Shown one piece after another: positions 40,045 through 44,764 of a stretch of DNA of 64,000 nt (positions are counted from its first letter, which is position 1; the number at the start of each line of letters is the position of its first letter). The position numbers and the translations under genes are program-made. The notes below the pieces were generated by a model, which saw nothing but the letters and a program-made list of their open reading frames with translations, did not search any database and was not told the DNA's origin. The DNA is from Natrarchaeobius chitinivorans (GTDB lineage: Archaea; Halobacteriota; Halobacteria; Halobacteriales; Natrialbaceae), in NCBI RefSeq assembly GCF_003841505.1, contig NZ_REGA01000001.1, positions 1-64,000 on the forward strand. The letters are read 5' to 3'.

Positions 40045-41031
40045 ATGACTGATAAGCCGCGTCTGACTTCCCGTCGACGGATGATCGCGACGACCGGTTC
40101 GCTCGCTGCTCTCGGTATCGCCGGCTGTCTCGGCGACGAGAACGGCGACGAATCCGAAGGTGACGATCACGACGACGGTCATGATCACGACGATGATCAC
40201 GACCACGATGATGATCACGACCACGACGATGATCACGGCGACGATCACGACCACGACCACGATCACGATCACGACGGCCCCGTCTCGGAGTTCGAACTAC
40301 TCGATCGCGATCACGACGAGGAGGTCGTCGTCTACATCCACGGCGACCACTGGCACGGCGACCCGCTCGAGGTACCCCACGACGACCACCTCTCGTTGGG
40401 CGTGTACGCCGAGGACGAAGACGGTGACGAGATCGAGATCGGGAACGGTACCGAACTGACCGGCGAGGTCGTCGAGGGCGCAAACGAAATCGTCGAAATC
40501 GAGTCTCACGGCGACCACGTCCACGTTCACGGCAAAGAAGACGGCTTTACCGACGTCGTCTTCCAGCTCGTCGAAGACGGCGACGTGATCTACGAGACGC
40601 CGGAACTCGAGACCGAGGTCGGACACCACGATCACGACGATCACGACCACGGCCACGTCGAAGTGGACGACCTCGAGATCATCGATCGCTCGGACGACGA
40701 AGTCGTCGCGGACATCCACGGCGACCACTGGCACGGTGAACTGCCCCACGTTCACGTCGACGACAACATCTCCCTGGGAGCAACGTTTACCGACGATCAC
40801 GGCGACGAGATTCCGATCGGCAGCGACGAAGAGTACGAACTCGCCGTAACGCTCGCGGACGGAGCCGAGGAAGGCGTCGTCGAAATCGATCCCGACGAGC
40901 ACTGGCACGGCGACCACGTCCACATCTACGGCGAGGCGGAGGGTGAGACGGAGGTCGTCTTCATGCTCTGGCACGACGACCACGCCGACTGGGAGAGCCC
41001 ACCGATCGCCGTCGAAGTCGAAGACCACTGA
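40045..41031 (+). CDS. His-rich Tat lipoprotein with two HGDHWHG domains (zinc-binding)
   Basis: 328 residues. A twin-arginine signal (SRRRMIATTG) and lipobox (GIAGC, Cys28) place it on the outer face of the membrane. Residues 38-76 are almost only His and Asp. Two homologous domains follow: one near 85-190 with HGDHWHG at 99-105 and HGDHVHVHG at 155-163, the other near 208-325 with HGDHWHG at 225-231 and HWHGDHVHIYG at 286-296. The same domain is inserted into the ZnuA-like protein encoded next. Capture of zinc for ZnuABC is the natural inference. Family otherwise unrecognised. Confidence 0.8.
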   Translation: MTDKPRLTSRRRMIATTGSLAALGIAGCLGDENGDESEGDDHDDGHDHDDDHDHDDDHDHDDDHGDDHDHDHDHDHDGPVSEFELLDRDHDEEVVVYIHGDHWHGDPLEVPHDDHLSLGVYAEDEDGDEIEIGNGTELTGEVVEGANEIVEIESHGDHVHVHGKEDGFTDVVFQLVEDGDVIYETPELETEVGHHDHDDHDHGHVEVDDLEIIDRSDDEVVADIHGDHWHGELPHVHVDDNISLGATFTDDHGDEIPIGSDEEYELAVTLADGAEEGVVEIDPDEHWHGDHVHIYGEAEGETEVVFMLWHDDHADWESPPIAVEVEDH

Positions 41032-41197
41032 TCTGAGGTTTCTGCCGACTCCCCTGCCCCACCGGATTCGCTCTCTCCTTCTCGCGACATCGTCTACGAG
41101 CCGGTCCCACGGCAACTCGGTACAGCAGTCAGTATAACTCGAGACCGAATCCGCGGAGACCGAATCACCGCTTCGACGGACGGACCGTCCACCGTCG

Positions 41198-41251
41198 TTA
41201 CAGCGGTAGCGAGGCGAAAGCCCACCCGTTTACGGGTAGGATGAAGCCGAC
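41198..41251. repeat. solo IS200/IS605-type end, copy 2
   Basis: TTACAGCGGTAGCGAGGCGA then AAGCCCACCCGTTTACGGGT and AGGATGAAGCCGAC. The hairpin ACCCGTTTACGGGT is intact here. It shares 35 of 36 bases with 18729-18764. No transposase nearby. It separates the His-rich lipoprotein gene from znuA. Confidence 0.55.
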
Positions 41252-41295
41252 AACCGGGGCCCAAATCACTAACGCCACGTCACCCGGTGGCACGA

Positions 41296-41325
41296 GTTAT
41301 TAACAAAATAACTCTATATAATAAT
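41296..41325 (+). promoter_or_regulatory. znuA promoter with dyad operator
   Basis: GTTATT-AACAA-AATAAC (41296-41312) is a perfect 6-5-6 dyad directly before the TATA box CTATATAATAATCC (41313-41326). The promoter of the His-rich lipoprotein gene has a related GCTATTAATAATAT at 39983-39996. A metal-dependent repressor site is a reasonable inference. Confidence 0.45.
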
Positions 41326-41355
41326 CCTTTTACCCTCGAAGGACCAGCTATTCGT

Positions 41356-42759
41356 ATGAACCTCTCACGCCGTTCGGTACTGAAAACAGGCGGGGGTGCC
41401 CTCGCGGGAACCGCGTTCGCCGGCTGTCTGAACGAGCCGGGGAACGGGTCCGATGACGGCAATCCCTCCGGAACCGGCTACGCGGCCTTTTTCGCGCTCT
41501 GGGACTGGGCCGAACACGTCGGCGGCGACGAGATGACCTTCGAAAATCCGGTCGAAGTCGGCCAGATGGGACACGGTTGGGAACCACCGGCCGACATCCA
41601 GCGGAACATCGCCGACTCGGACGTCTTCATCTACTTCGACACCGCCGAGTTTTCCTGGGCCCAAAACGTCGCGACCGACCTCGAGACCGACTACGACGAC
41701 GTGACGGTGATCGACGCCATGGACGGCCTCGAAGACCAGTTACTCCCGATCGACAGGGACGCAGACGACGGTCGCGAACCCGCGACTGACTACGACTTCG
41801 ATTCGGATACCGTCTCGATAGGTGGGTTCGACGTCTACGACGGCCAAACGGGCGAAGAGGTCGCCTACTGGCACGGTGATCACTGGCACGGCGACCTCCC
41901 CGAGGTACCACTCGAGGGCTCTGCAACCGTCGAAGGAATCTTCGAGGACGACGAAGGGCGAGTGTTGCCGCTCGGCGAAGACGAACCGTTCGAGATCGAC
42001 GCGCGGATCGTCGACGGCGCAAGCGAGGACGTCGTCGAGATCGAATCACACGGCGATCGTATCGAGTTCCACGCGCTCGAAGTCGGGCGGACGCGGGTCG
42101 TCTTCGAACTCGTCGCCGACGGCGACCCGATCTGGGACACCAGCAACGACAACATCACCGTCGAGGTGGTCGAGGAACTCGAGGAGTCCGACGCTCCGGA
42201 GTTTTACGACCCGCACGTCTGGGTGGATCCGGTTATCGCTCAGGACGTCGTCGAGACGATCGCCGACGGTCTCGCGGAGGTAGATCCAGACAACGCGGAG
42301 ACGTACGAGGAAAACGCCGCCGCGTACACCGACCGCCTCGACGACGTCGACCGGCAGTTCGAAGAGCTCGCGGACGACGCCGAGCGGGACGTCGCCGTCC
42401 TCGCGGGCCACGACTCTTTCCAGTACATCGAACACCGGTACGACTTCGAGATCCACACGCCGGTCGGGATCGCTCCCGACGCGGCCGAGACCGAATCGGA
42501 CATCTCCGAGGCGATCGAGGTCGTCGAGGAACACGACATCGAGACGATCCTCTACGATCCGTTCGAGACGCCCAACCCGGACGAAGACGTTCCCCAGATG
42601 GTCGAGTTACTCCTCGAGAACACGAGTGCAGAGGAGTACGCGCCCCTCACTCCTGCGGAAGGAACGACACAGGAGTGGAGCGACCAGGACTGGGGCTGGA
42701 TCGAACAGATGGAGGAAGTGAACATCCCGTCGTTACGCAACGCACTCGGTGCCGAATGA
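41356..42759 (+). CDS. znuA: zinc ABC transporter substrate-binding protein with inserted HGDHWHG domain
   Basis: 467 residues from ATG 41356; twin-arginine signal SRRSVLKTGGG and lipobox GTAFAGC (Cys24). The N-lobe carries MGHGWEPP (His73). The C-lobe has DPHVWVDP (285-292), GHDSFQYIEHRY (His352) and DPFETPNPDEDV near 401, the usual metal ligands of ZnuA-type cluster 9 proteins. The His-rich loop normally found between the lobes is replaced by a folded-looking ~120-residue domain (about 154-275) homologous to the domains of the upstream lipoprotein, with HGDHWHG at 173-179 and HGDRIEFHA at 232-240. Heads the znuABC operon. Confidence 0.9.
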   Translation: MNLSRRSVLKTGGGALAGTAFAGCLNEPGNGSDDGNPSGTGYAAFFALWDWAEHVGGDEMTFENPVEVGQMGHGWEPPADIQRNIADSDVFIYFDTAEFSWAQNVATDLETDYDDVTVIDAMDGLEDQLLPIDRDADDGREPATDYDFDSDTVSIGGFDVYDGQTGEEVAYWHGDHWHGDLPEVPLEGSATVEGIFEDDEGRVLPLGEDEPFEIDARIVDGASEDVVEIESHGDRIEFHALEVGRTRVVFELVADGDPIWDTSNDNITVEVVEELEESDAPEFYDPHVWVDPVIAQDVVETIADGLAEVDPDNAETYEENAAAYTDRLDDVDRQFEELADDAERDVAVLAGHDSFQYIEHRYDFEIHTPVGIAPDAAETESDISEAIEVVEEHDIETILYDPFETPNPDEDVPQMVELLLENTSAEEYAPLTPAEGTTQEWSDQDWGWIEQMEEVNIPSLRNALGAE

Positions 42760-42916: not shown

Positions 42917-43657
42917 GTGAGTTCAGCCGTCGACGTTCGGGACGTGACGTTTTCCTACGGCGAGAAGCTGGCGCTGGACGACGTCTCGTTGACCGTCGAG
43001 GAAGGCGACTTTCTGGGGCTGATCGGCCCCAACGGCTCGGGAAAGACGACGCTGTTGCACATCATGCTCGGACTGATCGAACCGGACCGCGGCTCGGTCG
43101 AACTGTTCGGCAACCCCGTCGACGAGTTCGACGCCGGCGAGCGGATCGGCTACGTCTCACAGCAGGCGACGAGCCGCGGCGGAACCATGCCCGTCACCGT
43201 CCGCGAGTGCGTTCGCATGGGCCGATTCGCCCACGTCGGCCACTCGAGGCTGACCGACGAAGATCGGGCGATCGCCGAACAGGCCCTCGAGACGGTTGGA
43301 ATATCTGACCTGGCCGATCGACGGGTTAACCAGCTTTCAGGGGGGCAGCGCCAGCGGGCGTACATCGCACGGGCGCTCGCTTCGGAAGCCGATCTGCTCG
43401 CGCTCGACGAACCGACCGTTGGCGTCGACGCCGAATCCCGCGACGCGTTCTACCGGCTGCTTGATTCGTTGAACGCCTCCGGAATCACGATCATCCTGAT
43501 CGAACACGATATCGGGGTCGTGACGGACCGAGCCGATCGTATCGCCTGTATCAACACCGAACTGTACCACCACGGCGACACCGAATCGTTCGTCGAGAGC
43601 GACGCCTTGAGCGAAGCCTACGGCGCGACGGGAACGGTCGTCCATCACCACCACTGA
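42917..43657 (+). CDS. znuC: zinc ABC transporter ATP-binding protein
   Basis: 246 residues from GTG 42917. An upstream in-frame ATG at 42749 would add a basic, repeat-encoded tail unlike the family. Walker A GPNGSGKT near 37-44, signature LSGGQRQR near 141-148, Walker B LLALDEPT near 161-168 and the IEHD switch His near 195 are all present. The C-terminus ends in four His residues (VVHHHH), an extra possible metal site. Powers zinc import with ZnuA and ZnuB. Confidence 0.92.
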   Translation: MSSAVDVRDVTFSYGEKLALDDVSLTVEEGDFLGLIGPNGSGKTTLLHIMLGLIEPDRGSVELFGNPVDEFDAGERIGYVSQQATSRGGTMPVTVRECVRMGRFAHVGHSRLTDEDRAIAEQALETVGISDLADRRVNQLSGGQRQRAYIARALASEADLLALDEPTVGVDAESRDAFYRLLDSLNASGITIILIEHDIGVVTDRADRIACINTELYHHGDTESFVESDALSEAYGATGTVVHHHH

Positions 43658-43660
43658 ACC

Positions 43661-44764
43661 ATGTCGGAATCAGACGATCACACGCTGGAGTCGCCACCCG
43701 TTTCGGACGTCAGCCAATACCAGCCCAAACCGGCCGATCTGCGTCGTCGCCTCGAAGTCGTGGGGATTTCGCTCGTCGGCTTTCTCGGCGCGTTCGTCAT
43801 CGCGTTCGTCGTCCTCGACTGGCTCCGACACTACCCCTCGCTCGGAGCGCTCCCGGGGACCCTGTTCGACCAGTTTCTGATCGCCGGCATGTGGGCCGAC
43901 CACGTCCTCGGGACGAACGTCTTCCAGCACCCGTTCATGTGGCGATCGATCGCGACCGGCGTCCTCATCGGCATCGTCGCCCCGCTGGTCGGCACTTACC
44001 TCGTCCACCGACAGATGGCGCTCATCGGAGAGACGCTCGCACACACGGCGTTCGCAGGTGTGGCGATCGGGCTGCTGGTCATGGCCGTCACCGGGTACGA
44101 GGGCTCGCTGTTACTAATCGCGCTCGTCGTGAGCATCGTCGGCGCGCTCGTCGTCCAGTGGCTCGCCGACAGAACCAGTACGTTCGGCGACGTCCCGATC
44201 GCGATCATGTTGTCGGGTAGCTTCGCAATCGGAACGTTGCTGATAAGCTGGGGACGCGGATACGTCTCGGTTCCCATCGACATCGAGGAGTTCCTCTTCG
44301 GGAGCATGTCGGTCGTCACCGCCGACGGTGCGCGAATGATGGCCGTTCTGAGCGTCGCCGTCGTCGGTATCGTCGCGGCGACCTACAAACAGCTGTTGTT
44401 CATCACGTTCGACGAGCAGGCCGCACGGGTCGCACAGCTCGACGTCTCGGCGTACAACACGTTGCTCGTCGTGATGACGGCGGTCGTCGTCGTCGGCGCG
44501 ATGCAGGTCCTCGGCGTGATTCTGGTCGCCGGCATGCTCGTCATCCCCGTCGCCGCCGCCTCACAAGTCGCCCGCAGCTTCCGCGAGACGCTGTATCTCT
44601 CGATCCTGATCGGCCAGGCGTCGATCGTCGGCGGGTTCGCGTTCGCGATCAGTCAAAGTCTCCCCTCGGGCGGTTCGATCATCGTCGTCGCGATCAGCTT
44701 TTACCTGCTCGCAGTCGCGTTCTCGCTGTTTACCGGTCGATCGACGGCGATCTCGATGCACTAG
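43661..44764 (+). CDS. znuB: zinc ABC transporter permease
   Basis: A 367-residue ABC-3 family permease with about eight to nine membrane helices, starting 3 nt after znuC. The MALIGETLAHTAFAGVAIGL segment near 119-138 and FGSMSVV near 213 are family signatures. A ~40-residue polar N-terminal extension precedes the first helix, longer than in bacteria. Completes the ZnuABC importer. Confidence 0.92.
   Translation: MSESDDHTLESPPVSDVSQYQPKPADLRRRLEVVGISLVGFLGAFVIAFVVLDWLRHYPSLGALPGTLFDQFLIAGMWADHVLGTNVFQHPFMWRSIATGVLIGIVAPLVGTYLVHRQMALIGETLAHTAFAGVAIGLLVMAVTGYEGSLLLIALVVSIVGALVVQWLADRTSTFGDVPIAIMLSGSFAIGTLLISWGRGYVSVPIDIEEFLFGSMSVVTADGARMMAVLSVAVVGIVAATYKQLLFITFDEQAARVAQLDVSAYNTLLVVMTAVVVVGAMQVLGVILVAGMLVIPVAAASQVARSFRETLYLSILIGQASIVGGFAFAISQSLPSGGSIIVVAISFYLLAVAFSLFTGRSTAISMH

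Follow-up and report, generated by a model that had tools for sequence, protein, structure and literature searches.

To our knowledge, accessory carriers for the substrate-binding protein (SBP) of a zinc importer (e.g. ZinT, AztD and Pht) come from bacteria only. Work on AdcA (PMC7858048) named the His/His/His/acid ligands of the zinc SBP and reported that import depends on the core SBP domain alone, with accessory regions aiding uptake. In PhtD, zinc is held within a three-stranded unit by H83 in strand 2 and by H86 and H88 in strand 3, and the protein reportedly hands its zinc on to AdcAII, an SBP (PMC3842936). On the archaeal side, a predicted ZntR operator is common to znuABC and a COG0523 GTPase gene in Methanosarcina (PMC2770081). 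Here, we describe a His-rich domain encoded three times in a 64,000-nucleotide stretch of the Natrarchaeobius chitinivorans genome (contig NZ_REGA01000001.1, positions 1 to 64,000; hereafter the window), which we judge likely to be a folded module that captures metal for high-affinity zinc uptake.

Gene organization of the locus

The genes downstream of the lipoprotein follow the order znuA-znuC-znuB (Table 1), as expected from the initial annotation, which had placed the lipoprotein and znuA next to znuCB. The lipobox cysteine of the lipoprotein is Cys28, followed by a His/Asp-rich linker with 13 His in aa 29–78. The three homologous HGDHWHG domains that had been proposed, two in the Tat lipoprotein and one in ZnuA, were recovered with a length of ∼120 residues, and align with 32 invariant columns that include HGDHWHG, VEI…HGD and G.T.VVF.L. 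Searching the whole genome with the lipoprotein as query returned the ZnuA copy (E 6.5e-17, 43% identity) and no further copy of the domain, the weaker matches being to signal peptides and linkers. A second PF01297 protein, encoded elsewhere in the genome, is plain (i.e. without the domain).

The znuA open reading frame as listed spans 41287–42759, but its start is the ATG at 41356: the Tat signal begins there, and the extension back to the GTG at 41287, an artefact of ORF calling, would contain the promoter element. For znuC, the GTG at 42917 is the likely start. The ZnuC C-terminus reads VVHHHH (43643–43654), a short His tail on an ATPase.

Table 1. Features of the putative zinc uptake locus (positions within the window).
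Feature	Position	Strand	Evidence or remark
Element TTAATAA-N14-TTACTAA	39987..40014	+	58 nt before lipoprotein ATG
Tat lipoprotein, 328 aa	40045..41031	+	Translation, domain alignment
Domain copy 1 (lipoprotein, ∼aa 79-194)	40276..40629	+	HGDHWHG 40339-40359; ESHGDHVHVHG; QLVEDGD
Domain copy 2 (lipoprotein, ∼aa 203-328)	40651..41028	+	HGDHWHG 40717-40737; DEHWHGDHVHIYG; MLWHDDHADW; model pLDDT 96
Element TTATTAA-N14-ATAATAA	41297..41324	+	By TATA-like CTTTTA; 59 nt before ZnuA ATG
ZnuA, predicted cluster A-I zinc-type SBP, Tat lipoprotein	41356..42759	+	PF01297 4.7e-43
Domain copy 3 (ZnuA ORF aa 174-298)	41806..42180	+	HGDHWHG 41872-41892; between ZnuA lobes
ZnuC ATPase	42917..43657	+	PF00005; longer ORF from 42749
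ZnuB permease	43661..44764	+	PF00950 1.3e-53

Family and fold of the domain

The initial annotation had recognized no named family for the domain, and our searches agree: the domain alone found nothing in Pfam, NCBIfam or PDB sequences, no family covered it in any of 57 archaeal and bacterial members scanned individually against the family libraries, and the 57-row profile produced only chance matches to PDB sequences (E≥0.048). A plasmid collection contained no match, and a literature search found no paper on this domain. Judged by sequence, the domain is thus new to all three of these collections. One candidate, PB1 (PF00564), was rejected; it scored 19.9–21.6 bits against a gathering cut-off of 23.6 over ∼30 residues in 2 of the 57 members, and is also contradicted by the all-beta model. 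Low-complexity His/Asp bias was likewise rejected as the cause of the similarity, since the matches run over ∼120 columns in which Gly, Trp, Val and Phe residues are kept.

An AlphaFold2 model of the domain based on the 57-row alignment was compact and all-beta (mean pLDDT 96.1), in keeping with the structured module that had been postulated. Foldseek had been named as a check that might bring up a characterized family; it returned no close solved fold, the best hits being weak ones to Ig-like domains of the S-layer and Rib types (E from 7.7e-4 to 1e-2; TM by query mostly <0.55). The all-beta model and these matches, though weak, make an Ig-like fold probable, with no named family closely related to it.

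Insertion site in ZnuA

The core of ZnuA is predicted to share the fold of AdcA, YcdH and AdcAII (Foldseek TM 0.84–0.87 by target), and the His/His/His/acid ligand positions are kept in ZnuA alignments (GHGWEP, DPHVWV, GHDSFQ and YDPFE); both sequence and model place the protein among the cluster A-I zinc-type SBPs. In the whole-ZnuA model (pLDDT 87.5), the insert forms a block of strands between the lobes. The insertion site was compared across a sample of 20 plain haloarchaeal SBPs. Aligned with these, the insert is bounded by the flanks MDGL… and DPHVWVDP, which in 18 of the 20 enclose a His-rich stretch (4–19 His, ligand His included) and in the other two almost no His. Based on this alignment, the exact replacement of the floppy His-rich loop suggested by the initial annotation is correct, the ZnuA of the window having a folded domain where the flexible loop is absent. 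The loop is variable or missing in known ZnuA/AdcA-type members too (e.g. AdcAII), so its absence is no bar to cluster A-I membership.

Histidine clusters

Motifs were counted in 58 ZnuA copies and 76 lipoprotein copies, with 180 domains used for the PROSITE test described below. Every one of the 58 ZnuA copies has both leading His of HxxHWH together with its Trp, and 52 have the third His; the same H, H and W were invariant in 13/13 copies from a second SBP type. HxxHxH was found in 49 of the 58 ZnuA copies and 52 of the 76 lipoprotein copies. The second (HGDHVH) and third (HDDH) His clusters are kept in most lipoprotein copies and mostly lost in ZnuA copies. Thus, HGDHWHG does occur in all three copies of the window as had been claimed, but which motif is conserved depends on context, and the three cannot be regarded as equal metal modules. 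In bacterial copies the pattern is reversed, with HGDHVH in 11/11 and the first-cluster HxxHxH in only about half, so a single fixed metal site cannot account for the whole family. In the model of copy 2, HxxHxH lies on a tight hairpin, with a His ending strand 17–23 and HxH in strand 26–29 (DSSP strands 5–12, 17–23 and 26–29 around H23, H26 and H28 of the domain model).

The weak resemblance to S-layer and Rib domains, together with the presence of copies in 890–970-aa surface-type proteins, would also fit an Ig-like module of S-layer type with a mainly structural or cell-surface role, its His being incidental in acidic, His-rich haloarchaeal surface proteins. This is very improbable: H, H and W never differ among the ZnuA copies although other positions do, and both the gene context and the promoter element speak against it.

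A common upstream element

The lipoprotein gene and znuA have separate promoters with a common 28-bp element, TTAnYAA-N14-WTAnYAA, which is AT-rich with half-sites 21 bp apart. It precedes 48 of 59 znuA genes (59–60 nt to the ATG) and 33 of 53 lipoprotein genes (mostly 57–59 nt), with a shuffled-sequence mean of ∼0.01 and a strict 14-bp spacer that showed no length tolerance. The whole genome (4.57 Mb) holds five sites, and the reversed control none. Three sites lie outside the window (G000 C6:189600, C4:29148 and C22:1613): a CobW/COG0523 GTPase gene that matches the zinc metallochaperone family ZigA best (NF038288, 409 bits, under the curated cut-off of 600) has one of them 60 nt ahead of it, another precedes a NikA/CntA-like SBP gene, and C22:1613 adjoins no clear zinc gene. 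Among relatives, ZigA-type genes in four genomes (G052, G064, G119 and G032) have the element in front of them, as does a plain znuA in G057; some sites precede genes without a clear role. COG0523 genes are classic zinc-regulon members, and we regard the element common to the znuA and lipoprotein genes and a ZigA-type GTPase gene as our strongest indication that zinc is the metal. These sites support control by zinc starvation and mark a candidate haloarchaeal zinc regulon.

An importer for a metal other than zinc, or a general scavenger of several (Ni, Co, Cu, Mn, Fe), is improbable. Such a reading could draw on the Mn and Fe types among cluster A-I SBPs, on variant modules beside Iron_transport/DUF7350 genes and on the element shared with the NikA/CntA-like SBP, but the His/His/His/acid pattern and the replaced His loop are typical of zinc-type SBPs, and genes of ZigA and ZnuD type either share the regulation or lie next to the system.

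Reading the element as a TATA/BRE signal alone was rejected: in front of most lipoprotein genes no CTTTTA box follows it, its spacer is strictly 14, and other promoters of this genome are without it (5 sites in 4.57 Mb). At three loci (L159, L174 and L147), FAD/NAD(P)-binding oxidoreductase genes follow the element and are possible further regulon members.

Distribution, gene context and evolution

The domain was found in 52 of 292 haloarchaeal genomes, representing 22 of 77 genera, and in three more genomes of the phylum, of the Methanocalculus kind. A set of 24 named loci comprised Natrialbaceae, Halorubrum vacuolatum, Methanocalculus, ‘Thermoplasmata’ metagenome-assembled genomes (MAGs), and Myxococcota and Ignavibacteriales MAGs. 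The source was a soda lake or haloalkaliphilic in 23 of these 24, a figure that is suggestive and no true count given the narrow search patterns, and that includes isolates whose habitats we take to be of this kind. Carbonate and a pH of ∼10 should make zinc scarce in soda lakes. The MAG codes B1Sed, T3Sed and CSSed denote Kulunda soda lakes (PMC6146748, PMC6704655). The bacterial range of the domain is under-sampled.

Co-occurrence with cluster 9 (A-I) ABC systems, which had been suggested as a check, was found across many genera: 58 of 75 haloarchaeal domain loci contain a domain-bearing SBP, 50 of these 58 with znuB close by, and the other 17 loci have no SBP nearby. The lipoprotein lies directly upstream of the SBP in 30 of 32 same-strand lipoprotein-SBP pairs, and lipoprotein, ZnuA, ZnuC and ZnuB form a conserved cluster. 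PF01297 is present in all 52 domain-bearing genomes versus 189 of 240 others. Lipoproteins carry 1–3 modules and ZnuA a single one at the His-loop site. Independent contexts in bacteria add to this: an Ignavibacteriales copy directly follows a TonB receptor that matches ZnuD best (212 bits, far short of the cut-off of 950), and a deltaproteobacterial copy lies downstream of a ZnuA with one gene between.

In a tree of 145 domains and 123 columns, in which many forks are soft, the main ZnuA inserts group together with support of 99/97, and the second SBP type, the two SBPs with double inserts (L020 and L024) and Thermoplasmata SBPs fall elsewhere. Because the SBP-borne sets are scattered and at least eight changes between free and SBP-borne forms are required, the simplest reading is that the module was grafted into SBPs several separate times.

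Several variant arrangements were observed. The second SBP type with the domain (L065, L073, L076, L078, L082, L085, L095, L105, L108 and L110) often accompanies a ZnuB-like gene, and the promoter element was absent in 10 of 11 cases examined. One Thermoplasmata MAG encodes an apparent circularly permuted ZnuA (L015:7005–8702) consisting of C-lobe, N-lobe and then two domains; the break coincides with the domain insertion site, and the protein of a related MAG (L019) is unpermuted. A divergent form, VHWHGxxxSHWH, lies beside a DUF7350/Iron_transport (PF10634) gene at L130:4411–7453 and L125:7069–8915, at L130 also beside a DUF7405 gene, and some members may serve iron or copper because of these neighbors. 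Lastly, a different His-rich module (DHACxH...AP...GYVxFD; L173 and L098 in G213, and L053, L056 and L114) replaces the lipoprotein upstream of znuA in G213, under the same element, and also occurs in 890–970-aa surface-type proteins that hold the HGDHWHG domain.

Proposed mechanism

Under zinc limitation, a metalloregulator that acts on the element would permit expression of the system. The membrane-anchored lipoprotein, with its His/Asp-rich linker and multi-His modules, would concentrate Zn2+ outside the membrane and deliver it to ZnuA, first to HxxHxH in the homologous module, from which it would move to the buried His/His/His/acid site and on through ZnuBC. The ZnuA module would thereby stand in for the flexible His-rich loop as a local collector. 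We infer this route, like zinc binding by the domain and transfer to ZnuA, from the anatomy of the proteins and the precedents of ZinT, AztD and Pht. The metal-capture module claimed by the initial annotation is supported with respect to its structured, duplicated, importer-linked nature and its position at the loop site; capture, hand-over and the suggested part in place of a ZinT-like chaperone stay conditional. The helper role is likely modest, because the core domain alone was necessary in the AdcA study.

The lipoprotein could instead be a surface buffer or reservoir for zinc or mixed metals, with the ZnuA insert merely tuning access or regulating uptake, a role previously proposed for His loops. 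High capacity would follow from the His/Asp-rich linkers and several modules per protein, ZnuA copies without two of the three His clusters provide no matched donor and acceptor sites, and the dispensability of accessory regions for AdcA import points the same way. We nevertheless consider it unlikely: an element shared with a ZigA-type gene implies that expression comes when zinc is lacking, a condition in which a store would help little, and the module entered SBPs several times at one site.

Capture and delivery of zinc is thus the reading we prefer. A more ambitious version, which we put forward tentatively and with more doubt than confidence, is a zinc relay of soda-lake archaea built from one repeated fold, in which a membrane-anchored string of Ig-like HxxHxH modules gathers zinc and hands it from module to module to a graft in the SBP, the graft having replaced the His loop more than once, under co-regulation with a ZigA-type gene in an undescribed haloarchaeal zinc regulon. 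As the module is found both free and grafted at the loop site in what appear to be separate events, the role of the His loop becomes directly testable by swapping loop and module, and the common element provides a concrete candidate for such a regulon.

Comparison with known systems

The locus resembles ZnuA/AdcA with an ABC-3 importer in PF01297 membership, fold, the four ligand positions and the order znuA-znuC-znuB; it differs in the folded ∼120-aa domain in place of the His-rich loop, which most sampled haloarchaeal ZnuAs retain. As with ZinT and the ZinT domain of AdcA (PMC7858048), an accessory domain, here a putative zinc binder, occurs both free and fused to an SBP and is a proposed collector; unlike the C-terminal ZinT domain of AdcA, the domain here lies between the lobes and is modeled as an Ig-like-type sandwich. 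No sequence match to the domain was found for ZinT, AztD, ZepA or ZrgA in Pfam, NCBIfam or PDB sequences.

We know of no Pht unit inserted into an SBP, and the Pht unit is much shorter than the domain described here. The likeness to PhtD-AdcAII (PMC3842936), taken from the published description, lies in HxxHxH, which in the model appears to be set on a comparable three-stranded unit, with a His at a strand end and HxH in the next strand, and in repeated motifs within a surface protein encoded beside a zinc SBP. The Pht PROSITE pattern (PMC3842936) matched 0 of 180 domains, and no histidine-triad Pfam match was found in the 57 members, nor in P0001 at E≤1. Because the pattern is absent, the domain would work like Pht rather than be Pht.

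Among other carriers, ZrgA is ferredoxin-like and itself the SBP, and AztD is a propeller. AztD, ZrgA and ZepA (PMC6689063, PMC9820375, PMC10957091) are secreted periplasmic or extracellular zinc handlers tied to uptake, as is predicted for the proteins here; ZepA, unlike these, is reported absent from archaea and has an H-X2-9-H-F/Y-H motif and a second domain. Like the predicted ZntR regulon (PMC2770081), the gene set described here combines znuABC and a COG0523 gene under one predicted operator in archaea; that regulon has DtxR-like ZntR sites in methanogens, whereas the haloarchaeal set has an AT-rich element, its half-sites spaced by 21 bp, and includes the new lipoprotein. By the tests run, the domain most likely acts like ZinT, Pht or AztD while being non-homologous to them, a new family by which an importer of known kind has been equipped in a new way.
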